Assembly: GCF_003086295.3 (NCBI RefSeq)
Contig: NC_092051.1
Location: 78,252,445-78,316,444, forward strand
Length of the DNA: 64,000 nucleotides
Origin: Arachis hypogaea
Taxonomy: Eukaryota; Streptophyta; Magnoliopsida; Fabales; Fabaceae
Direction of reading: 5' to 3'
Of this stretch, positions 1,172 to 64,000 are shown piece by piece. The notes under the pieces were generated by a model. It did no database searches. It saw nothing but the letters and a program-made list of their open reading frames with translations, and was not told where the DNA came from. Position 1 is the first letter of the stretch, and the number at the start of each line of letters is the position of its first letter. A program made the position numbers and the translations under genes.

Positions 1172-1189
1172 GGTGGGTTGTCTCCCACC
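1172..1189 (-). other. Post-pol stem-loop, element C
   Basis: On the minus strand the sequence is GGTGGG, loop AGACAA, CCCACC: a perfect 6-bp stem 43 bases after the integrase stop and preceded by AAAGTGCTA. Elements G, H, K and E carry the same loop type at the same place with different but complementary stems. Function is unknown. Confidence 0.6.
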
Positions 1190-5089: not shown

Positions 5090-6738
5090 TGGTGTACGAA
5101 ATTGTGACCCCTGGTAATGGCTCCAAAAACATGGTGCACTAATCTTAATTCATAATTTGTCACAACTTCGATACAACTAACCAGCAAGTGCACTGGATCG
5201 TCCAAGTAATAAAACCTTACGTGAGTAAGGGTCGATCCCACGGAGATTGTCTGCTTGAAGCAAGCTATGGTCACCTTGTAAATCTCAGTCAGGCGGATAT
5301 CAAATGGTTATGGAGTTTTCGAATAATAATAATAAATAAACAGAAAATAAAGATAGAAATACTTATGTAATTCATTGGTGAGAATTTCAGATAAATGTAT
5401 AGAGATACTTTCGTTCCTCTGAACCTCTGCTTTCCTACTGTCTTCATCCAATCCTTCCTACTCCTTTCCATGGCAAGCTTTATATAGGGCATCACCGTTG
5501 TCAATGGCTACATCCCATCCTCTCTGTGAAAAAGGTCCAAATGCTCTGTCACGGCACAACTAATCATCTGGAGGTTCTCGATCATACTGTAATAGGGTTC
5601 ACCCTCCTTTTGCGTCTGTCACTATCCCCAGCACTCGCGAGTTTGAAGTTCGTCACAGCCATCCCTTCCCAGATCCTACTCGGAATACCACAGACAAGGT
5701 TTAGACTTTTCGGATCTCAAGAATGGCCATCCATGGGTTATAACTTATACCACGAAGATTCTAATATCTCGGACTCGGTCCTCTGTATTAGATATCTAAG
5801 AGATACTCATTCTAGATTATTTGCATGTAGAACGGAAGTGTTTGTCAGACACGTGTTCATAAGTGAGAATGATGATGAGCGTCACATAATCATCACATTC
5901 ATCATGTTCTTGGGTGCAAATGGATATCTTAGAAGCGGGATAAGTTGAATTGAATATAAAACAGTAGTACTTTGCATTAAATCATGAGGAACAGTAGAGC
6001 TCCACACCTTAATCTATGCAGTGCAGAAACTCTACCGTTGAAAATACATAAGTGATAATGGAGTTCATTGGTCTCAGCCCCAGAGGGGAACCGGAGTAAC
6101 CAAGACTTTGAATACAATGATAAAAAGTTCTATATATACTAGACTAGCTACTAGGGTTTACAGAAGTAAGTAATTGATGCATAAATCCACTTCCGGGGCC
6201 CACTTGGTGTGTGCTTGGGCTGAGCTTGAAGTTTACACGTGCAGAGGCTTCTTCTGGAGTTGAACACCAAGTTGTAACGTGTTTTTGGCGTTCAACTCTG
6301 GTTCGTGACGTGTTTCTGGCGTTTAACTCCAGACTGCAGCGTAGAACTGGCGTTCAACGCCCTTTTGCATTGTCTAAACTCGGAAAAAGTATGGACTATT
6401 ATATATTTCTGGAAAGCCCTAGATGTCTACTTTCTAACGCAATTGGAAGCGTGCCATTTTGAGTTCTGTAGCTCCAGAAAATCGACTTTGAGTGCAGGGA
6501 GGTCAGAATCCAACAACATTAGCAGTCCTTCTTCAACCTCTGAATCTAATTTTTGCTCAAGTCCCTCAATTTCAGCCAGAAAATACATGAAATCACAGAA
6601 AAACACACAAACTCATAGTAAAGTCCAAAAATGTGAATTTAACATAAAAACTAATAAAAACATCCCTAAAAGTAACTAGATCCTACTAAAAACATACTAA
6701 AAATAATGCCAAAAAGCGTATAAATTATCCGCTCATCA
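5090..6738 (-). mobile_element. Solo LTR D, TGATGAGCGG family
   Basis: On the minus strand it starts TGATGAGCGGATAATTTATA at 6738 and ends in TACACCA at 5090, 1,649 bases, flanked by AACAT duplications. It is the same family as the LTRs of E, G and J. No internal region or second LTR is attached, so it is a solo LTR, the usual product of LTR-LTR recombination. GGCGTTNAAC palindromes lie at about 6260-6365, and the shared LTR module around 6385-6480. Unlike the LTRs of E and G, its 3' end contains a primer-site relic (see 5108-5125). Confidence 0.9.
5108..5125 (-). other. Primer-binding-site relic inside LTR D
   Basis: The minus strand reads TGGAGCCATTACCAGGGG, which aligns to the Athila tRNA-Asp primer site TGGCGCCGTTGCCGGGGA with all but one difference a transition. 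It is preceded by a copy of the LTR end (GTGCACCA) plus six bases, and followed by 18 bases that end the LTR again. The outer duplications place it inside the LTR. Element J has the same arrangement. Confidence 0.8.
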
Positions 6739-8993: not shown

Positions 8994-9469
8994 TTATTCG
9001 AGTTTGAACAACTAACGGTTCATCTTGTTGCTTAGATTAGGAAAAATTTTGTCTTTTGAGTCAGAGTCTTTTACTTTCTTTTCAAAAATCTTTCAAAAAA
9101 AATTTTTATTTTTCTTTATTAATCTGTGATTTATCTTTGAGTCTTTTATTATTGTTCTTGTTAAAATTTTAGAATCCTTATTTCCTTTTTCAAAATTTTT
9201 TTCGAAATTTGATTTTTTTTACTAATAATTGAGTTTAGCTTTACATTTTAAGTTTGGTGTCAATTGCATATTTTATATTTTCCTTTAAATTTTCGAATTT
9301 GTGTCCTTTGTTTTTCCTGGATCTTCAAGTTGTTCTTGTTTAATTTTCTTGTTTGATCTTTAATTTTTCTTGTTCTGTTTCTTTTCTTGTTTTTCTTGTG
9401 CTTTTTCAAAACATTAGCTTTCAAAAAAAATTATTCTTAGTTATCAAAAATATTTCTTCAAAACAAGTG

Positions 9470-9530
9470 TTACATTTACAGCTCAATTGGCTAGAGCGTT
9501 GGTCTATGTTCTTGGTAACTGGGTACCTTC
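9470..9530 (+). other. tRNA-like relic in leader of E
   Basis: AGCTCAATTGGCTAGAGCG followed by TTGGTCT resembles the D arm and 5' anticodon stem of a nuclear tRNA, including an A-box-like pattern. The rest (to GGGTACC) only loosely resembles a T arm, and no closing acceptor stem is visible. It is a decayed or partial tRNA-like sequence, not a working gene. The amino-acid type cannot be decided by eye. Confidence 0.4.
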
Positions 9531-10442
9531 TTTTTAAAATCTTTTTCAAAAATAATTTTTCTTTGATTAAATCTTGTGCCAAACTTTAAGTTTGGTGTTT
9601 TCTTGTTAATCTTTCTATAATTTTCAAAAATTTTATTGAGGTTTTCTAAAAATTTTAAGTTTGGTGTTCTTTCTTCATGTTCTTGTGTTCTTCTGAGTCT
9701 TCAAAGTGTTCTTGAGTCTTCCTTGTGTTTTGATCTTAAAATTTTTAAGTTTGGTGTTCCTTGGTGTTTTTCCTCCAAAATTTTCGAAAGCAAGGAGCAT
9801 TAGATCTAAAAATTTTAAGTTGTGTGTCATTTGTGTGTTTTTCTCTTTCATCATAAAATTCAAAAATAAAAAAAAATATCTTTTCTAGCTATTTTTAAGC
9901 AAATATTTCGAAATTTTTTTAAAAAATTCAGATTTCAATTTCAAAATTTTATCTTATCTTAGTTTTAAAAATTTCAAAATTCAAATCTTTTTCAAAAAAA
10001 TTCATATCTTTTTCAAAATCTTATCTTATCTTATTTCAAATTCAAATTTCAATTCTCAGCTTCCAAAATTCAAATTTCAAAATTCAAATTTCAAAACTTT
10101 TTACTTTAAATTCCTTATCTTTTCTTACCTAGCTTATCTTATCTTTTCTAATCTCAAATCTTAAAATCAAATCTTTTTCATATATTTTATTTTATTTTAT
10201 TTTATTTTATTTTCTTTTCTTACAAGTATCTTTAATTTTAAGATATATCTTTTTCAAAACTTCCTAACCAATTTCTCTCTCTTCAATTTTTTTCGAAAAT
10301 CCTCACCCACATCTTTTTCAAATCTTTTTAATTAATTAATTTAGTTTTCAATTTTCTTTTATTTATTTTTCTTCAAATTTTCGAAATCATAATCAATTTT
10401 TCACTTATTTTATTTTATTTTATTTAGATTTCGTTTTTTTTT

Positions 10443-14518: not shown

Positions 14519-14540
14519 AAGCGCTTGTTGGGAGGCAACC
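14519..14540 (+). other. Post-pol stem-loop of E, split by insertion of F
   Basis: GAAGCGCTTG then TTGGG AGGCAA CC; the 3' arm continues after F at 16872. Before the insertion the site read TTGGG-AGGCAA-CCCAA, the counterpart of the hairpins in C, G, H and K. G shows the uninterrupted version on the minus strand at 28357-28374. Confidence 0.65.
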
Positions 14541-16866: not shown

Positions 16867-16871
16867 CAACC

Positions 16872-17017
16872 CAATGTTATTTAATCATATCTATTTTATT
16901 TTCTTTTTGTTATTTCGTGATTTATTAGGTTGATGATCATGTGAAGTCACAAAAACTACTGAAAAATCAAAAACAGAAAGAAAAACAGAATTGAAAATAG
17001 TACACCCTGGAGGAGAG
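16872..17017 (+). other. Element E, start of 3' noncoding region
   Basis: Continuation of E after F: CAATGTTATTTAATCATATC matches the minus strand of G just after its post-pol hairpin. The stretch is AT-rich, with no coding frame. Confidence 0.7.
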
Positions 17018-17190
17018 CAGTCTGGCGTTTAAATGCTAGAAACAAGCATCTGTCTGGCGTTTAACGCCAGAAATAAGCACCAAGCTGGCGTTTAACGCCA
17101 GAAATAAGTATCTGCCTGGCGTTAAACGCCAGAAATAGGCTACATTTGGGCGTTTAACGCCAGAAACAAGTAGCAGTCTGGCGTTAAATG
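17018..17190. repeat. Palindromic GGCGTTTAACGCC array in the 3' region of E
   Basis: Six units of CTGGCGTTTAACGCCAG type, period about 28-30 bases, with spacers like AAATAAGCACCAAG. G carries its own array at the same relative place (27985-28205). Transcribed, each unit can form a 6- to 7-bp hairpin, and neighbouring units can pair with each other. Confidence 0.88.
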
Positions 17191-17400
17191 CAAGGATTGC
17201 ACAGCAAGGGCATTTTACACGCCTAATTGGAGCAGGGATGTTAAGTCCTTGACCCCACTTGATCTGTGGACCCCACAGAATCCTCTACAGGATCTGTGGA
17301 CCCCACAGGATCCCCACCTACCTCAGCATTCCAATTCAAACCATTTCCCTCCCATACCCACCCATTCATACTTCTCCTTCTACTCCCTTCTATCTTCTTG

Positions 17401-18810: not shown

Positions 18811-18848
18811 GTTGCTTGGGGACAAGCAACAATTTAAGTTTGGTGTTG
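18811..18848 (+). other. 3' stem-loop and putative polypurine-tract region of E
   Basis: GTTGCTTG GGGA CAAGCAAC forms an 8-bp stem with a four-base loop. It is followed by AATTT and AAGTTTGGTGTTG, which ends at the LTR start at 18849. By position the last bases must include the primer for plus-strand synthesis, although they are not a classical purine run. G and K have the same arrangement. Confidence 0.65.
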
Positions 18849-26416: not shown

Positions 26417-26453
26417 CAACACCAAACTTAAATTATTGCTTGTCCCCAAGCAA
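26417..26453 (-). other. 3' stem-loop and putative polypurine-tract region of G
   Basis: On the minus strand TTGCTTG GGGA CAAGCAA (26453-26436) forms a 7-bp stem, followed by TAATTT and AAGTTTGGTGTTG ending at the LTR start. The arrangement is the same as in E and K. Confidence 0.65.
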
Positions 26454-27730: not shown

Positions 27731-27750
27731 TTTGCTCGTCCTCGAGCAAA
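27731..27750 (-). other. AGGA-loop stem-loop, upstream copy in G
   Basis: Minus strand TTTGCTCG AGGA CGAGCAAA, an 8-bp stem. It is followed by CCTTTTAAGTTTGGTGTGG. Compared with the 3' copy (TTGCTTG/CAAGCAA) one pair has changed from T-A to C-G on both sides. Confidence 0.65.
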
Positions 27751-27984: not shown

Positions 27985-28205
27985 GTTATCCTGGCCTTAA
28001 ACGCCCAGAATGCTATCCATTCTGGCGTTTAATGCCTACTTGATTGCCTCTTTGGGCGTTTAACGCCAAGCCAGATACCCTGGCTGGCGTTAAACGCCAG
28101 GAATCGTTCTTTACTGGGCATTTTTTTGAACGCCCAGAATGCTGCCTGCATGGGTGTTAAATGTCCATTCTGCTATCCTTACTGGCGTTTAAACGCCAGT
28201 AAGCC
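27985..28205. repeat. Palindromic GGCGTTTAACGCC array in the 3' region of G
   Basis: Six or seven imperfect units, including GGCGTTTAACGCC and GGCGTTAAACGCC forms and GGCGTTTAAACGCC near 28183. It is at the same relative position as the array of E. Confidence 0.85.
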
Positions 28206-28356: not shown

Positions 28357-28374
28357 ATTGGGTTGCCTCCCAAT
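28357..28374 (-). other. Post-pol stem-loop, element G
   Basis: Minus strand ATTGGG AGGCAA CCCAAT, 6-bp stem, preceded by GAAGCACTT. This is also the intact version of the site into which F inserted in E. Confidence 0.65.
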
Positions 28375-30742: not shown

Positions 30743-32207
30743 CTATGTCACAGTATAGAGATTTCTTTATGTGAGTAGAAGAATAGAAGAATAGAAAAAT
30801 GAGAATAGAGAGGATAAGAGGAATTCGAACACAGAGAGAGAAAGAGGGTTCAAATTATGAGTAGAAGAGAAGTGTTAGTGAATAAAAAAATAAATAAATG
30901 GAAAGAGATGAGAGAGAGAGTATTCGAATTTTAAGAAGAGGGAGAAGAAAAATATTTTTATTTTTATTTAATTAATTAAGTTAGAATTCAAAATTTAAGA
31001 AAAGAATTAAGAGCGAATTGAAAACTAAATAAATTAATTAATTAAAAAGATTTTTGAAAAAATTGTATTTAGTTTTCGAAAATGAGAAGTGAAAACGTAG
31101 TTAGGTGGTTTTGAAAAAGATAAGAAATAGTAAACTTTTTAAAATTAAAACAAACAAATCAAGTGGTTAATTGAAAAAGATTTGAAAATAAATTTTGAAA
31201 AGATAAGAAGTTAGAAAAAGATTTTGAAATTAAAATTTTGAAAAAGATATGATTGAAATTTATTTTGAAAAATATTGAAAAAGAAATAAAAAATATTTGA
31301 TTTTTAAAATTAAAGTTGATGACTTGACTAACAAGAAACTAAAAGATATGATTCTAGAATTTAAAGATTGAACTTTTCTTAACAAGAAAGTAGAAAACTT
31401 GAAATTTTTGAATCAAAACATTAATTGTTAGTAAAGTTTTCAAAAATATGAAATAAAATTAAGGAAAAGATTTTGAAAATTTATTTAAGAAATTCGAAAA
31501 TATTAAGAAGAAAAATGAAAAAGATTTGATTTTTGAAAAAGAATTGAAAAGATAAAATTTTTTAAATTGAAATTTTGACTTGACTAACAAGAAACAACTA
31601 AATTTTAAAAAATCTTTGACTAAGTCAACTCAAAATTTCAAAATTTGTTAGTAAAATAAGGAAAAGATATTATTTTTTATTTTTATTTTTTTGAATTAAT
31701 GAAGAAAGAAAAAACAACAAAATGACACAAGACATAAAAATTTAAGATCAAAACAAGAAAAATATGCAAAAACACTTTGAATATTAGGATGAACACCAAG
31801 AACACTTTGAAGATCATGATGAACATCAAAAACATATTTTTGAAAATTATTAAGAAAAGAAAGACATGCAAGACACCAAACTTAAAAATTTTTAAACTTT
31901 AGACACTAATAATTCGAAAATGAACAAGAAAAAAAAGACAACACACAAAACAAGAAAAATTAAAGATTAAACAAGAAAAATCATCAAGAACAACTTAAAG
32001 ATCAAAGAACATAATGCATGTTGAATTTTCGAAAATTTAAGGAAAATTAAAAACATGCAATTGACACCAAACTTAAAATTTGACACTAGACACAAACAAG
32101 AAACATAAAAAAAATTTTCGATATTAAAAATAAAAAAACATAAACATAAAATAAAATTACCCAATTTAAGTAACAAGATGAACCATCAGTTGTCCAAATT
32201 TGAACAA
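30743..32207 (-). other. AT-rich untranslated leader of element G
   Basis: About 1.46 kb, A-rich on the plus strand, no coding frame. On the minus strand the box AAGTTTGGTGT occurs near 31870-31880 and 32063-32073. It is the counterpart of the leader of E. Confidence 0.7.
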
Positions 32208-42915: not shown

Positions 42916-42933
42916 GGTGGGAGACAACCCACC
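42916..42933 (+). other. Post-pol stem-loop, element H
   Basis: GGTGGG AGACAA CCCACC, 6-bp stem, 43 bases after the integrase stop and preceded by AAAGTGCTA. It is identical to the hairpin in C. Confidence 0.65.
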
Positions 42934-44530: not shown

Positions 44531-44642
44531 AGGATGGTCACTAAAAGAGGAAAGGAGAAGGCTTCTGAAAAGCCACTGGCAAGGAGAGGAACCAAGAGAG
44601 CACCGGCTAAGGCGCCACCATCTACAAGCATCAACCGCCAAC

Positions 44643-53323: not shown

Positions 53324-53581
53324 CAAAAGCTAAAGCCTCTACCCCCTCATCTTAAATATGCATTCCTTGGTGAGAAGGATCACTTCCTAGTGATCATCAA
53401 CTCCACCCTGAGTGAGGAAGAAGAAGAAAAGCTACTTGCTGTACTAAGAGCCTACAAGGATGCTCTGGGATGGACCATTGATGACTTAAAGGGTATATGC
53501 CCTGCTATATGTATGCATAAGATTCTCTTGGAGGAAAATTCCAAACCAGTAGTACAACCTTAGAGAAGACTGAATCCCACA

Positions 53582-56179
53582 ATGAAGGAGGTTGTTCAGA
53601 AGAAAGTGATGAAGTTATGTAAAGCTGGAATCATTTACCCCATCTCTGACAGCCCATGGGTGAGCCCAGTTCAAGTAGTACCGAAGAAAGGTGGCATGAC
53701 TGTCATTGTCAATGAGAAGAATGAAATCATACCCACAAGAACAGTAACAGGGTGGAGAATGTGCATTGACTATAGAAGGCTGAATGATGCCACACGAAAA
53801 GATCACTTCCCCCTCCCTTTCATTGACCAAATGCTTGAAAGGTTGGCTGGCCATGCCTATTACTGCTTCCTTGATGGATATTCTGGCTATAATCAAATAG
53901 TTGTTGACCCCATGGATCAAGAGAAGACCTCCTTCACTTGCCCCTTTGGAGTTTTTGCTTACAAGAGAATGCCATTCGGGTTGTATAATGCCCCAGCTAC
54001 CTTTCAGAGGTGCATGCTATCAATCTTCTCAGACATGGTAGAAAAATTTATTGAAATTTTTATGGATGATTTCTCCATTTTTGGTGATTCTTTCAATGAT
54101 TGCTTACACCATCTTACTCTAGTCTTAAAAAGGTGCCAAGAAACCAATTTGGTTTTGAACTGGGAGAAATGCCATTTTATGGTACCCGAAGGAATTGTTC
54201 TTGGTCACAAAATTTCAAGAAAGGGTATAGAGGTGGACAAGGCAAAAGTAAAAATTATAGAAAAGCTTTCACTGCCAACAAATGTAAAAGCTGTTAGAAG
54301 TTTCTTGGGCCATGCTGGATTCTATAGACGATTCATCAAAGATTTTTCTAAAATAGTAAAACCATTAAGCAACTTGCTTGTGGTGAGCAACCCTTTTTCC
54401 TTTGATGATGAATGTAAACAGGCCTTTGAGACTCTAAAAGCTAAGCTCACCACAGCACCAATTATCACACCCCCAAGTTGGGGATTACCTTTTGAACTTA
54501 TGTGTGATGCAAGTGACCTTGCAATTGGTGTTGTGCTGGGGCAGAAGAAGGACAAGAAGCACCATGTCATCTACTATGCAAGCAAAGTATTGAACGAAGC
54601 TCAAAGAAATTATACCACAACAGAGAAAGAGTTACTAGCTGTGGTATATGCTTTTGATAAGTTTAGGCAATATTTGATTGGATCCAAAATCTTAGTTTAT
54701 ACTGATCATGCTGCTCTCAAGTATCTAATGTCAAAACAGGATGCCAAACCAAGGCTAATTAGATGGATATTACTTCTACAAGAGTTTGACATTGAGATCA
54801 AGGACAGAAAGGGTAGTGAGAATCAAGTTGCTGACCATCTATCAAGGTTGCCACAAGGGACGAATCAAGATACCTCTCAACCAGTGAATGAGAATTTTCT
54901 GGATGAGTACCTCTTGCAAATCCAACAAACCCCTTGGTTTGTAGACATGGCCAACTACAAAGCAGGAAGGAGTATTCCACAAGAGTATACAAGGCAACAA
55001 GTTAAGAAGCTGCTACATGAGGCTAAGTTATTCTTGTGGGATGAACCCTTCCTATTCAAAAGATACCCAGATGGAATGATTAGAAGATGTGTGCCGGAAG
55101 TTGAAATGAAGGACATACTATGGCATTGTCACAATTCAAGCTATGGTGGCCATTTTGGAGCGGAAAGGACTGCTGCAAAAGTCCTCCAAAGTGGGTTCTA
55201 TTGGCCTTCTATCTTCAAGGATGCTAGAGATTTTGTGAGTTACTGCAATGAATGCCAAAGAACAGGAGGCTTGACAAAGAAGAATGAGATGCCTCAGAAG
55301 TTCATTTTGGAAGTGGAACTCTTTGATTTATGGGGAATAGACTTCATGGAACCCTTCCCTCCATCCTACACATTCAAGTACATCTTAGTGGCAGTGGAGT
55401 ATGTTTCAAAATGGGTAGAGGCAATAGCCACCACTACATGTGATGCTCATATGGTATTGCAATTTCTAAGGAGAAACATCTTCACTAGGTTTGGGGTGCC
55501 AAAGGGACTTATAAGCGATGGGGGAAGCCACTTTTGCAACAAACAATTGAACTCCCTCCTCCATAGATATGGAGTAACCCACAAGGTAGCCACACCCTAT
55601 CACCCACAGACAAATGGACAAGCTGAACTTGCAAACAAAGAGCTAAAGAGAATTTTGGAGAAAACTGTAGGAGCAACAAGAAAGGATTGGGCAAGGAAGC
55701 TAGATGATGCACTCTGGGCATATCGGACAGCATTCAAAACCCCCATAGGAAGATCTTCATTTCAGCTGGTGTATGGAAAAGCATGCCATTTACCTGTAGA
55801 GCTTGAACACAAAGCTTTCTGGGCCACAAAACTTCTAAATCTTGATACCCAAGCAGCTGGAGAGAAGAGACTGTTGCAACTCAATGAGTTAGAGGAATTC
55901 AGACTTGAAGCATATGAGAATGCCAGAATATACAAGGAAAGAACAAAGAGGTGGCATGACAAGAAGATATCTCCAAGGACATTTGAACCAGGCCAAAAAG
56001 TGTTACTCTTCAACTCTAGGCTAAAAATTTTTCTTCGAAAGCTTAAATCCAGATGGACTGGTCCATACACCATCACAAGAGTTTTCGCTCATGGTTATGT
56101 GGAACTACATGATGAAACCTCAAAGGAGACATTCACAGTCAATGGTCATAGGGTGAAGCTCTATCTTGGTGGCCCCTAG
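53582..56179 (+). CDS. Element K reverse transcriptase-RNase H-integrase, long open frame
   Basis: 865 codons without a stop. [17 protein letters not shown] at the start, [20 protein letters not shown], catalytic D162-D163 in FMDDFS. RNase H: D309 in [42 protein letters not shown]. Integrase: zinc-binding H515, second H in GGHFG, C555 and C558; DD35E core D587 (GIDFM), D646 (ISDGG), E682; end motif [11 protein letters not shown]. No chromodomain. The first ATG is internal to RT, since translation should come through from gag-protease, which is broken. A small change next to the core (FMEPFP for FMGPFP) could matter. It is the most complete enzyme frame in the window. Confidence 0.88.
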
Positions 56180-57143
56180 AGCAAGGAAGAAAGTGTGCAC
56201 TTGTTAACATAAGCAAGGGAGCTGCAATGTCAAGCTAAGGACAATAAACAAGCGCTTCATGGGAGGCAACCCATGCACAGGAGTCTTTTATTTTCATGCT
56301 TTAGTAATCAATAATAATAGGTTGAATCATATGCATCTAAGAGAATAAAGATTGAACTAGCACATAGTGTATGCAAGGTACTAAGTTTGGTGTGGCCAAT
56401 CTTGAAGCAAATGCAAAAGCTATTTTTTTTACAACACGTAGTCACAAACTAAGTTTGGTGTCCACACATACACGAAATGCTAGATCATGGAGCAAACATG
56501 TAGTCATTTCCCTTAGACATATGAAAGCAACCATTAAATTTCAATTTTGTCTTGTTGTGTATCATAAATCTTTTGAAAATTGTAGCATTAGTCCAAACAT
56601 CACAAGGAATTCTAAAGTCTTTATATTCTTGTTGCAGGAAAGAAAAAGAAAAAAGTGATGGAGAATCTTGGGAGAGGAGTTCACGGACACACACAAGGAA
56701 AAGGAAGTCACATGTGCCTTGGGTTTTGTGCATTGGGAAGAGCAACTCAACATGCAATAGCTAGAAGATTCATGTTTCCCATAACTTGACCAAACCTTTA
56801 ACCCCTCCACCATTTTAAGTGACGTGAACCCCCAACAACAATCAAACTTTGCCTTACCTTCACATTCATATATAGACCACTCAACATCACCATATTTCAC
56901 CAATACATCACCACACCTCATCAATTCACCTCAACCGAAATCACACTCACCCCATTAATCATCTTTGTTTCACAAACCTTGTTCTTGATCCTAAGAATCA
57001 CTAAGCAAAACCCATGATGCACTATTTCTCCTAGCCTACCCGAACCATTATTCTTCTTCATTCCCCTTCACATTCACTTTCAAGCTTGCACTTCTTACCT
57101 TGTTGCCATATCCACTTCAACCTCCTTCATAAACATTCTCTTT
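56180..57143 (+). other. Element K spacer between integrase and third ORF
   Basis: No coding frame. After the post-pol hairpin it carries AAGTTTGGTGT boxes at 56382-56392 and 56451-56461, a purine-rich run (GAAAGAAAAAGAAAAAAG near 56638), and a C-rich stretch. The short ORFs of both strands are not conserved. Confidence 0.6.
56258..56275 (+). other. Post-pol stem-loop, element K
   Basis: CATGGG AGGCAA CCCATG, 6-bp stem, 78 bases after the integrase stop and preceded by AAGCGCTT. The stem differs from those of C/H and G at matching positions on both sides. Confidence 0.65.
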
Positions 57144-57180
57144 ATGCTTGAGGACAAGCATTCTTCTAAGTTTGGTGTTG
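57144..57180 (+). other. AGGA-loop stem-loop and box, upstream copy in K
   Basis: ATGCTTG AGGA CAAGCAT (57144-57161), 7-bp stem, then AAGTTTGGTGTTG at 57168-57180 and GAGGATTCG. It lies 30 bases before the third ORF. The copy at the 3' LTR (59917-59953) differs by a compensated outer pair. Confidence 0.65.
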
Positions 57181-57209
57181 GAGGATTCGACCCTTGTAAT
57201 TGAATTCCA

Positions 57210-58721
57210 ATGGCCTCATCATCAAGAGCTAGCAAAGGAAAGGACAAGCAGCCGGTGGGAGAGCAAGACACGTTTGATGAGAGAATATTCAAATCCAAAA
57301 ATCATGAGCGCATCTTTAATTGGATGATAAGCAAAGATATTGTTCTGGAGGTGCCCTTCAAGCTAAGAAAGGAGGAATACCCTGAGATGCAAAAAGTGAT
57401 TAGAAAAAGGGGATGGGAGCTTCTCTGTAATCAACCTCAAGTTGTAAGTATGCCTCTCATTCATGAGTTCTATGCCAATGTCATAAAGAAAACTGATGAT
57501 GAAGAACCATATCTGAGCTATGTAAGAGGAGTGGTGGTCCACTTTAGCCCAGACACCATCAATAGGGTGCTAATGATCAAGACAAAACGGTTTAAGCAAC
57601 CTAGCTTTGAGGAAAGGGTTACATATGACCAAAGATGTGTGGATGTGCTAAGTGACCTATGCAAAGTGGGCACAGACTGGGTGTTGGATTCACAAGGACA
57701 ACCACTCAAACTTAGAAGAGGTGATCTCATACCTCAAGCAAAAGGATGGCATGACATAGTGAGAAGATCATTAATCCCTACCTCAAACAACTCAGAGGCA
57801 ACAATAAACAGAGCAATAATGATCCACTGCATAATGAAAGGAGGGGAGATCAACGTAGGAGAAATCATAGCTAAAAACATCATTGACACAGCTGAAAATG
57901 TCAAACAAGATAGTTTGTTAGGATATCCTAGCACTATCTTATGCCTATGTAAAGAAGCTGGGGTACCTCTTAAAGAGTTTGAAGATACAGACTTGGTGTC
58001 CATAGGGAAGCCTATCACCAAGGAAAGATTGGAGTACGTCACCACAGTCCAATTGGAAAGGCAACCTCTAGCAAGAAGAAAGAAAAGGAAAGGAGCAAGA
58101 CAAGAGGAAGAGCATGAAGAAATGGAAGAACCAAGTGCCTTAAACATGAATCAACTCCAAGCCGCTTTGGAAGGAATTTCTGGGCAATATTCACTAATTC
58201 AAAGAAGCCAAGAGGAACAAGCTCAACAACAAAAGGACCTTTGGCATTTGATGGATCAGCAAAGAGGAGTTCAAGCTCAATGGATGGATCAGCAAAGGGA
58301 ATATCAAATGCACATGATGGAACAACAACAAGAGCAATATGCAAAAATGTATGAAGTCATCAACAACTCAGATGCTGAACATGAAAGATCCATGGAGAAA
58401 GTAATACAAGAACAGGCTCAGCTAAGGAAAGAGCAAGCTCAGCAAAGGGAGCTCCTCCAGAGGATAGATGGGAGACAAGATGCCTTACATAGAGACTACA
58501 ATGAGAACAGAATGTTCAAAGTGGCTAGACATAGAGACAGGATTGATTATGATATGTGCACCCAAGAAAAACTCAGCTACCTTTGTGGAACACTTCCAGT
58601 GCTCAACCCACAACTCCAAACATTCAATGAAGCACAAAAGGTATTAGAAGAGCAGGAAATTGCAAGGGTGAGATTTAATGCTCAAAGGCTAAAGGAGAGG
58701 ATGGTAAGCTCAGGGATATAG
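57210..58721 (+). CDS. Element K third ORF, putative plant transposon protein domain
   Basis: 503 codons, open. It starts MASSSRASKGKDKQPVGEQDTFDERIF. Residues 25-290 form a helical region with WELLCNQPQVVSMPLIHEFYANV, YVRGVVVHFSPDTINRVL, WHDIVRRSLIPTSNNSEATINRAIMIHCIMKGGEINVGEII, and GYPSTILCLCKEAGV, typical of the third ORF of Athila elements in the env position (Transposase_32 type as I recall). Then RRKKRKGARQEEEHEE, a basic-acidic hinge, and a long Q- and E-rich coiled coil (about 325-425). No signal peptide or transmembrane segment, so it is not a visible envelope protein. Function is unknown. Translation route is also unknown: it lies a kilobase past pol in the same RNA. Confidence 0.75.
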   Translation: MASSSRASKGKDKQPVGEQDTFDERIFKSKNHERIFNWMISKDIVLEVPFKLRKEEYPEMQKVIRKRGWELLCNQPQVVSMPLIHEFYANVIKKTDDEEPYLSYVRGVVVHFSPDTINRVLMIKTKRFKQPSFEERVTYDQRCVDVLSDLCKVGTDWVLDSQGQPLKLRRGDLIPQAKGWHDIVRRSLIPTSNNSEATINRAIMIHCIMKGGEINVGEIIAKNIIDTAENVKQDSLLGYPSTILCLCKEAGVPLKEFEDTDLVSIGKPITKERLEYVTTVQLERQPLARRKKRKGARQEEEHEEMEEPSALNMNQLQAALEGISGQYSLIQRSQEEQAQQQKDLWHLMDQQRGVQAQWMDQQREYQMHMMEQQQEQYAKMYEVINNSDAEHERSMEKVIQEQAQLRKEQAQQRELLQRIDGRQDALHRDYNENRMFKVARHRDRIDYDMCTQEKLSYLCGTLPVLNPQLQTFNEAQKVLEEQEIARVRFNAQRLKERMVSSGI

Positions 58722-59916: not shown

Positions 59917-59953
59917 TTGCTTGAGGACAAGCAACATTTTATGTTTGGTGTTG
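59917..59953 (+). other. 3' stem-loop and putative polypurine-tract region of K
   Basis: TTGCTTG AGGA CAAGCAA (59917-59934), then CATTTT and ATGTTTGGTGTTG ending at the LTR start at 59954. Confidence 0.65.
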
Positions 59954-63002: not shown

Positions 63003-64000
63003 TTGTTCGAGTTTGGACAACTGACGGTTCATCTTGTTGCTCAGATTAGGTAATTTTATTTTAATTTTAAGAAAATGTTTTTATTCTTTTTATTTTCAAA
63101 AAATTTTCAAAAAAATATTTTTAAATCATAAAACCAAAAATAATTTTGTGTTTCTTGTTTGAGTCTAGTGTCAATTTTTAAGTTTGGTGTTAATTGCATC
63201 TTTTTTATTTCTTAAAAATTTCGAAAACTCATGCATAATGCTCTTCATGATCTTCAATTTGTTCTTGATGATCTTCTTTGTTTGATCTTTGCATTTTCAT
63301 GTTTTGTGTCTTTTCTTGTTTTTCATATGCATTTTTAATTTGTTAGTGTCTAAACATTGAAAATTTCTAAGTTTGGTGTCTTGCATGTGTGTCTTTTCTT
63401 AAAAATTTTCAAAAATAAGTTCTTGGTGTTCATCTTGACATTCAAAGTGTTCTTGGTGTTCATCTTGACATTCAAAGTGTTCTTGCATGCATCATGTGTT
63501 TTGATCTTGAATTTCCATGTTTTGCATCATTTTTGTATTTTCTCTCTCTTCTTAAAAATTTAAAAATAAAAAAAATATCTTTCCCTTTTTCTTCTCATAA
63601 ATTTCGAATATTTTAGTTGACTTTTTCAAAAAATTTTCAAAATTTAGTTATTTCTTATGAGTCAAATCAAATTTTCAATTTAAAAATTCTATCTTTTTCA
63701 AATCTTTTTCAAAAATAAAATCTTTTTCATTTTTTCTTTCATATTTTCAAAAATTCAAATTGATTTTCAAAAATCTTTTTCTTATTTTATTCCATATTTT
63801 TCAAAATCTTTACTAACAATTAATGTGATTGATTCAAAAAATTTTTGAGTTTGTTACTTGCCTATTAAGAAAGGTTCAATCTTTAAATTTTAGAATCATA
63901 TCTTTTAAATTCTTGTTAGTCAAGTAATCAATTTCAATTTTCAAAATCAAATATTTTTAATTTCCAATTCAAATATTTTTCAAAATGATTTTCAATCATA
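63003..64000 (+). other. AT-rich untranslated leader of element J
   Basis: No coding frame. It begins like the leader of E (GATTGTTCGAGTTTGGACAA), holds the box AAGTTTGGTGT at 63180-63190 and 63369-63379, and a 31-base direct repeat (TTCTTGGTGTTCATCTTGAC and following) at 63420-63481. It leaves the window before gag. Confidence 0.7.

Follow-up and report, generated by a model that had tools for sequence, protein, structure and literature searches.

A covarying hairpin downstream of pol in Athila-type retrotransposons of Arachis hypogaea

A conserved hairpin behind pol

We analyzed a stretch of 64,000 nucleotides from Arachis hypogaea (contig NC_092051.1, positions 78,252,445 to 78,316,444 of the forward strand; here referred to as the window) and found that its Athila-type retrotransposon copies carry a short hairpin behind the last stop codon of their gag-pol part. 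Very probably it acts in cis, as an RNA structure kept by selection. It consists of a 6-bp stem with a GGG/CCC core and a near-fixed AGRCAA loop. All 5/5 Athila-type 3' coding ends in the window (copies C, E, G, H and K) carry it, the hairpin of E being split by an insertion, F. As a cis-acting RNA element it is new, though of a generally known sort: Rfam 15 gave no match at gathering across the window and none at E <= 1 for positions 56170-56330, and no description of it was found in the literature searched.

To our knowledge, the marking of RNA for particles and the spread of pol-less families are poorly understood in plant long terminal repeat (LTR) retrotransposons. A short covarying element that is kept through coding loss makes a specific target for probing, binding and reporter mutation, and a handle of sequence plus structure for finding pol-less Athila derivatives missed by annotation based on reverse transcriptase (RT). 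In the open-licence literature searched, judged by titles and the starts of abstracts, no Athila post-pol hairpin is described, and searches for the 12-mer cores returned only unrelated papers. The words "hairpin" and "stem" do not occur in PMC2410132, nor do "hairpin" and "stem-loop" in PMC11963269, "hairpin" in PMC7264820 or "stem" in PMC1142308, while the stem-loop passages of PMC3276544 concern microRNA precursors and not this hairpin.

The hairpins of the window are as follows:

56258-56275, plus strand: hairpin of K, CATGGG-AGGCAA-CCCATG
42916-42933, plus strand: hairpin of H, GGTGGG-AGACAA-CCCACC
1172-1189, minus strand: hairpin of C, stem identical to that of H
28357-28374, minus strand: hairpin of G, ATTGGG-AGGCAA-CCCAAT, behind an open reading frame (ORF) with a protease-like part and without RT, RNase H and integrase
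14527-14540, plus strand: 5' part of the hairpin of E, whose pol is without integrase; interrupted by insertion F
16872-16875, plus strand: remaining 3' stem of the hairpin of E, behind the second CAACC (16867-16871)

These coordinates agree with those of an earlier sequence-only reading of the same DNA. It had also proposed that F split the hairpin of E, which is borne out by the duplication of CAACC at 14536-14540 and 16867-16871; the insertion lies at the border of the loop and the 3' stem. By the title of Jedlicka 2019, palindromes are frequent targets of LTR elements. A pattern search found four exact matches of the core GGGAGRCAACCC in the window, compared with 0.01 expected (1175-1186 and 28360-28371 on the minus strand, 42919-42930 and 56261-56272 on the plus strand).

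The outer triplets of the stem are GGT/ACC in C and H, ATT/AAT in G, CAT/ATG in K and GTT/AAT, including a G-U pair, in E. Three outer pairs had been said to vary; the two outermost indeed do, but the third, which adjoins GGG, is T-A in 5/5 window copies and in 22/22 rows of the alignment given below, so the variable pairs are two and not three. Since the stems of C and H are identical, the window alone provides three independent stems, and the probability of finding Watson-Crick pairing by chance at the two variable positions of every one of them is (1/4)^6 = 2.4e-4, or 2.8e-3 with G-U allowed. C and H differ at 9/78 positions, none of which falls within a 37-nt run spanning the AAGTGCTA word, the hairpin and the hairpin edge. 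The word upstream of the hairpin is AAGTGCTA in C and H, AAGCGCTT in K and E and AAGCACTT in G; the claim that AAGYGCT precedes every copy does not hold for G, which has AAGCACT.

In K the hairpin is flanked by:

56228-56257, plus strand: conserved upstream block with a TGTC..GAC mini-stem, a spacer and the AAGCGCTT word
56276-56315, plus strand: U-rich tract downstream of the hairpin, 17 T of 40

In the alignment the GTC..GAC mini-stem is conserved, and, judged by eye, its three inner pairs are nearly invariant and the fourth is often unpaired, so it adds no support from covariation. The T fraction in the 40 nt past the stem is 0.555, compared with 0.268 in the wider flanks, with at least 15 T of 40 in 22/22 rows. 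Measured from the stop of the longest ORF ending no more than 150 nt upstream, the stem starts after 41-52 nt in 16/22 rows; in the remaining six the distance is 78 nt (K), 67 nt (L017), 19 nt (L026 and L035a), 88 nt (L030) and 126 nt (L032), L numbers denoting matches outside the window. Two larger structures were considered and rejected. One is a larger folded domain enclosing the pol stop, which C and H form but which the folds of G and K do not show, and a loop-loop pairing of the mini-stem with the AAGYGCT word would need, judged by eye, bases in K-type copies that differ from those in C/H-type copies.

Covariation of the stem

From the genome of the window (a 2.557-Gb assembly in 440 contigs) we sampled 25 stretches, each of 10 kb, taken at round coordinates and blind to content. 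Taking together the window, these stretches and one plant-contaminant contig (L010), the hairpin has 24 copies. The alignment, A6, comprises 22 rows: C, H, G and K from the window, L010, and 17 copies from the sample. It excludes E (split), L022 (decayed core) and a chance match, L035:1809. A covariance model of the block, built on these rows and searched over 322 kb, recovered 24 copies, all with E <= 6.5e-13, whereas the match ranked after them has 0.011; 22/24 are training rows, and copies E and L022 are not.

In A6, 96.2% of the cells of the 6-bp stem are paired, compared with 84.1% after shuffling, the covariation score is 0.367 compared with 0.114, and 15 cells are changed on both sides compared with 4.6. 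For each of these three measures 0/500 shuffles are as high. Slid registers reach a covariation score of at most 0.151, and RNAalifold run on A6, a check that the sequence-only reading had suggested, returned de novo exactly the six pairs of the hairpin. The outermost pair in the 22 rows is GC in 9, GU in 7, CG in 3, AU in 1 and other in 2, and the second pair is UA in 9, GC in 6, CG in 3, AU in 2, UG in 1 and other in 1, so that all four Watson-Crick types are found at one stem pair. On a tree built without the hairpin columns, in which 14/19 inner branches are unresolved, a minimum of 4 changes per side is required at the second pair. When each distinct stem is counted once (n = 11), 19/22 variable cells pair, which is matched in 22/200,000 shuffles. 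The selection on RNA pairing that had been proposed is thus supported by the covariation shuffles, by RNAalifold and by the distinct-stem test, and covariation in the 22 rows is much stronger than in the window by itself. On the sense strand there are 9 G-U cells and 2 A-C cells, an excess that is consistent with sense RNA being the form that is read.

Retention of the hairpin across element architectures

The block is present in 18/18 Athila-type pol or protease tails with following sequence, 5 from the window and 13 from the sample (including the split E and the decayed L022), a count that omits tails cut at stretch ends and, in L027, a remote gypsy fragment of about 29% identity. Upstream of the hairpin, the copies have the following architectures, intact or not:

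Pol region present: C, H, K, L015, L027, L035b
Pol without integrase: E
Protease-type tail, with RT, RNase H and integrase missing: G, L017, L019, L020, L022, L023, L028, L036, L037; L033a is cut by the stretch edge
Separate deletion retaining the integrase tail: L026
ORFs without protease or pol match: L024, L030, L032, L033b, L035a

By tblastn of the window ORFs, RNase H in E is followed by a short C-tail, with integrase missing, and in G a protease-like part runs directly into an E-like short C-tail, with RT, RNase H and integrase missing. Pfam gives no match to the G ORF itself, whose protease label comes from alignment to the protease ORF of E, while the first ORF of E is gag (PF03732, Pfam). 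The ORFs before the hairpins of L035a and L024 (260 aa in the latter) have no Pfam match. L024, L030, L032 and L033b form a group with no protease or pol match upstream; at least two of the four (L024 and L030) carry a PF20167 third ORF (ORF3) behind the hairpin.

Behind 11/19 hairpins outside the window there is an ORF3 match in the same sense. None was found behind L010, L027, L032, L033b, L035a, L035b, L036 and L037, where a diverged ORF3 could escape detection and where, for L035b, L036 and L037, the downstream sequence extends over only 1.1 to 2.2 kb. L027, with 6.1 kb of downstream sequence, has no ORF3 match and reaches its polypurine tract (PPT) word at 5543 without one, whereas its relative L015 has an ORF3. 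E and G have neither an ORF3 match nor a sense ORF of at least 90 aa downstream of the hairpin. Because the hairpin is kept after the loss of pol parts and without a detectable ORF3 in E, G and L027, its presence is linked to neither of these coding regions. It is kept in derivatives without RT, RNase H and integrase, without integrase alone, or without protease and pol, its presence in genomic RNA being assumed from its position.

A possible mark on full-length RNA

Our best guess, offered tentatively, is that on full-length Athila RNA the hairpin serves autonomous and pol-less families alike as a mark for recognition or packaging, acting in cis just past the last gag-pol stop. A protein, most likely Gag encoded by the element, would read the GGG/CCC core and the fixed loop; the outer two pairs would need only to pair, and the hairpin would mark unspliced RNA for selection into particles. 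A core common to diverged families would let pol-less families travel with the enzymes of pol-bearing ones. It is possible, and we put this forward with more reserve, that the hairpin is an RNA "passport", a mark across diverged Athila families, with a near-fixed loop and core and an outer stem drifting through paired changes, by which distant pol-bearing families package and mobilise pol-less ones. If true, this would explain the cross-family mobilisation inferred for Athila. According to Marco and Marin 2008 (PMC2410132), Arabidopsis Athila elements are mostly without pol, and their mobilisation is attributed, by inference, to other families acting in trans; they belong to the same architecture class, with gag and ORF3 and without pol. 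Such trans mobilisation calls for a shared cis signal, and we judge a recognition or packaging mark most likely because the hairpin persists in enzyme-dependent derivatives and cross-family mobilisation has been inferred in Arabidopsis. Psi packaging stem-loops are short, have purine-rich exposed loops on genomic RNA and can serve helper-dependent genomes, and the Athila hairpin, also a short stem-loop with a purine-rich loop, may be likened to them. The sequence-only reading had suggested roles in ORF3 expression, RNA processing or packaging; the tie to ORF3 is weakened by E, G and L027, and a cis role on full-length RNA fits better.

Several points weigh against such a mark. Retroviral packaging signals such as psi lie mainly in the 5' leader, whereas the Athila hairpin lies after pol, and a packaging role gives no obvious need for a place beside the stop codon. 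Retention in deletion derivatives could partly stem from recent shared ancestry. In A6, the pairs with change on both sides number 2 compared with 1.7 shuffled (367/500 shuffles as high), the further pair types 8 compared with 6.3 (75/500), and 6/9 G-U cells come from a single stem type. Moreover, the minimum-energy fold of 72 nt of K is without this hairpin. The single-sequence folds have z of -4.0 and -3.6 for C and H, -2.0 for G and -1.6 for K; since they are strong for C and H but weaker for G and K, and the best fold of K differs, the case stands on comparison and not on energy.

Other explanations

The main rival, which we regard as rather unlikely, is a stop-proximal RNA stability element: a host RNA-binding protein on the hairpin and the U-rich tract would shield the long untranslated 3' part of the genomic RNA from nonsense-mediated decay, much like the RNA stability element (RSE) of Rous sarcoma virus. 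Both are located just past a stop codon, on retroelement RNA that is unspliced and has a long 3' part; there a protein binding polypyrimidine tracts is involved, and here a U-rich tract follows. The abstracts of PMC5580461 and PMC4764554 place the RSE directly downstream of the gag stop and state that PTBP1 bound near the stop blocks UPF1. The stem beginning 41-52 nt past the stop in 16/22 rows and the T-rich 40 nt behind it (0.555 against 0.268) fit this explanation, which is compatible with pol-less copies too. However, the stop distance varies from 19 to 126 nt in six rows, its regularity elsewhere may be mere homology of the whole block, and no sequence-specific loop is described in those two abstracts. 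The RSE, as presented there, comprises about 400 nt after gag. The Athila hairpin has 18 nt and a near-fixed loop and follows the final stop of gag-pol; we claim no homology between the two.

We think it improbable that the hairpin aids the expression of ORF3, for example by lying at a splice site or internal promoter, or where re-initiation or internal entry takes place. It is placed between pol and ORF3, a U-rich stretch of the kind typical of plant introns follows it, an ORF3 match follows in the 11/19 cases outside the window, and a splice-acceptor-like AG/GATG stands at the start of ORF3 in H (44531-44536) and L030. On the other side, ORF3 starts about 760-2100 nt beyond the hairpin in the ten elements examined, and by eye the copies share no 5' splice site at the hairpin, GTATGAT being found in C and H and none near K. 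This role is weakened by E, G and L027, in which the hairpin persists without a detectable ORF3, and by the many copies that are also without RT, RNase H and integrase. An action in reverse transcription or as DNA, for example as a pause site, strand-transfer site or palindrome, is quite improbable. Insertion F does lie inside the E hairpin, and a second compensated hairpin type (see below) adjoins a PPT-like word; yet the excess of G-U over A-C suggests sense RNA, though mostly through one stem type, the block is distant from both LTRs of K, and a palindrome leaves the fixed loop unexplained. Hardly credible is chance or phylogeny alone, that is, a conserved motif merely resembling a stem. 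Although 4/6 pairs barely vary, many rows are related and most tree forks are unresolved, the shuffles that reach the observed values (0/500, and 22/200,000 on distinct stems), the four Watson-Crick types at one pair and the lower scores of slid registers all speak against it.

Copies outside the genome

In bacterial and archaeal genome contigs, a first pattern scan gave no match and a second gave nine, of which L002-L009 are regarded as chance from their bacterial or archaeal titles. The ninth, L010, is plant DNA on a contig labelled Candidatus Burkholderia humilis, which we take to be a Psychotria leaf-nodule symbiont (a literature search gave no confirmation); the stretch holds a tnp2 transposase and a Ty3-type gag. 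The block of L010 reads TGTCAGGCTGGTGAC...AGCGCTT CTTGGG AGGCAA CCCATG. No pol is recognisable beside the hairpin, and tblastn of the window ORFs gives no match in L010 at E <= 1. The proposed conservation across Athila families thus holds inside this genome, and outside it the sole DNA copy is L010, the stem of which has one mismatch. Pattern and protein scans of viral contigs gave only L001 and L011, both taken as chance. ORFs reading across the hairpin have one protein relative each, P0001 and P0002, whose residues agree with the G/E-type and the C/H-type stem in a comparison at the protein level only.

Element K, the second hairpin type and other repeats

The other features of K, and the second hairpin type in the window, are:

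53564-56179, plus strand: pol ORF of K, 871 aa, with RVT_1, RT_RNaseH, Integrase_H2C2 and rve (Pfam); its stop is 78 nt before the stem
57204-58721, plus strand: ORF3 of K, PF20167 Transposase_32
57144-57161, plus strand: second hairpin type in K, ATGCTTG-AGGA-CAAGCAT, before an internal TAAGTTTGGTGT copy and ahead of ORF3
59917-59934, plus strand: second hairpin type in K, before TATGTTTGGTGT and the 3' LTR (from about 59953)
18812-18829, plus strand; 27732-27749 and 26436-26453, minus strand: other window copies of the second hairpin type

K has the Ty3/gypsy order of RT, RNase H and integrase, together with an Athila trait, an extra sense ORF that stands downstream of pol and ahead of the 3' LTR. 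The end of its 5' LTR is followed by a TGGCGCCGTTGCCGGGGAT sequence resembling a primer binding site, which may match tRNA-Asp, as expected of Athila. In C/H-type elements, ORF3 starts after strong splice-acceptor-like sequences, TTCTTTAG/GATG and TTTTTCAG/GATG (44531-44536; about 3550 of L030, sense), which is consistent with a spliced ORF3 message in these elements.

The second hairpin type, TTGCTYG-RGGA-CRAGCAA, has a 7-bp stem and lies a few bases ahead of TAAGTTTGGTGT, before the 3' LTR and/or the ORF3 region. Among 19 copies in the window plus 250 kb, obtained by a search that held the other stem columns fixed, one pair is T-A in 13 and C-G in 6, and the outermost is T-A in 18 and A-T in 1. 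PMC2829016 reports an extra PPT in the Athila4/Calypso linker and an inverted repeat at the PPT of Sireviruses. The internal copy of the second type is probably this extra PPT, and the second type at the PPT may belong with these reported motifs. Like them, the post-pol hairpin is a conserved non-coding motif in the region that separates pol from the 3' LTR in env-bearing plant elements, but those motifs are PPT copies and an LTR-junction repeat, from which it differs in sequence and place.

With at most one mismatch, TAAGTTTGGTGT occurs 19 times in the window, compared with 0.65 expected, including 56382, 56450 and 57167, and it is also found outside the hairpin module at 9249-9757, 31873-32075 and 63179-63379. 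In addition, palindromic CTGGCGTTTAACGCCAG-like units are repeated past the hairpin in G (about 28000-28200, minus strand) and in E (about 17000-17200, plus strand).
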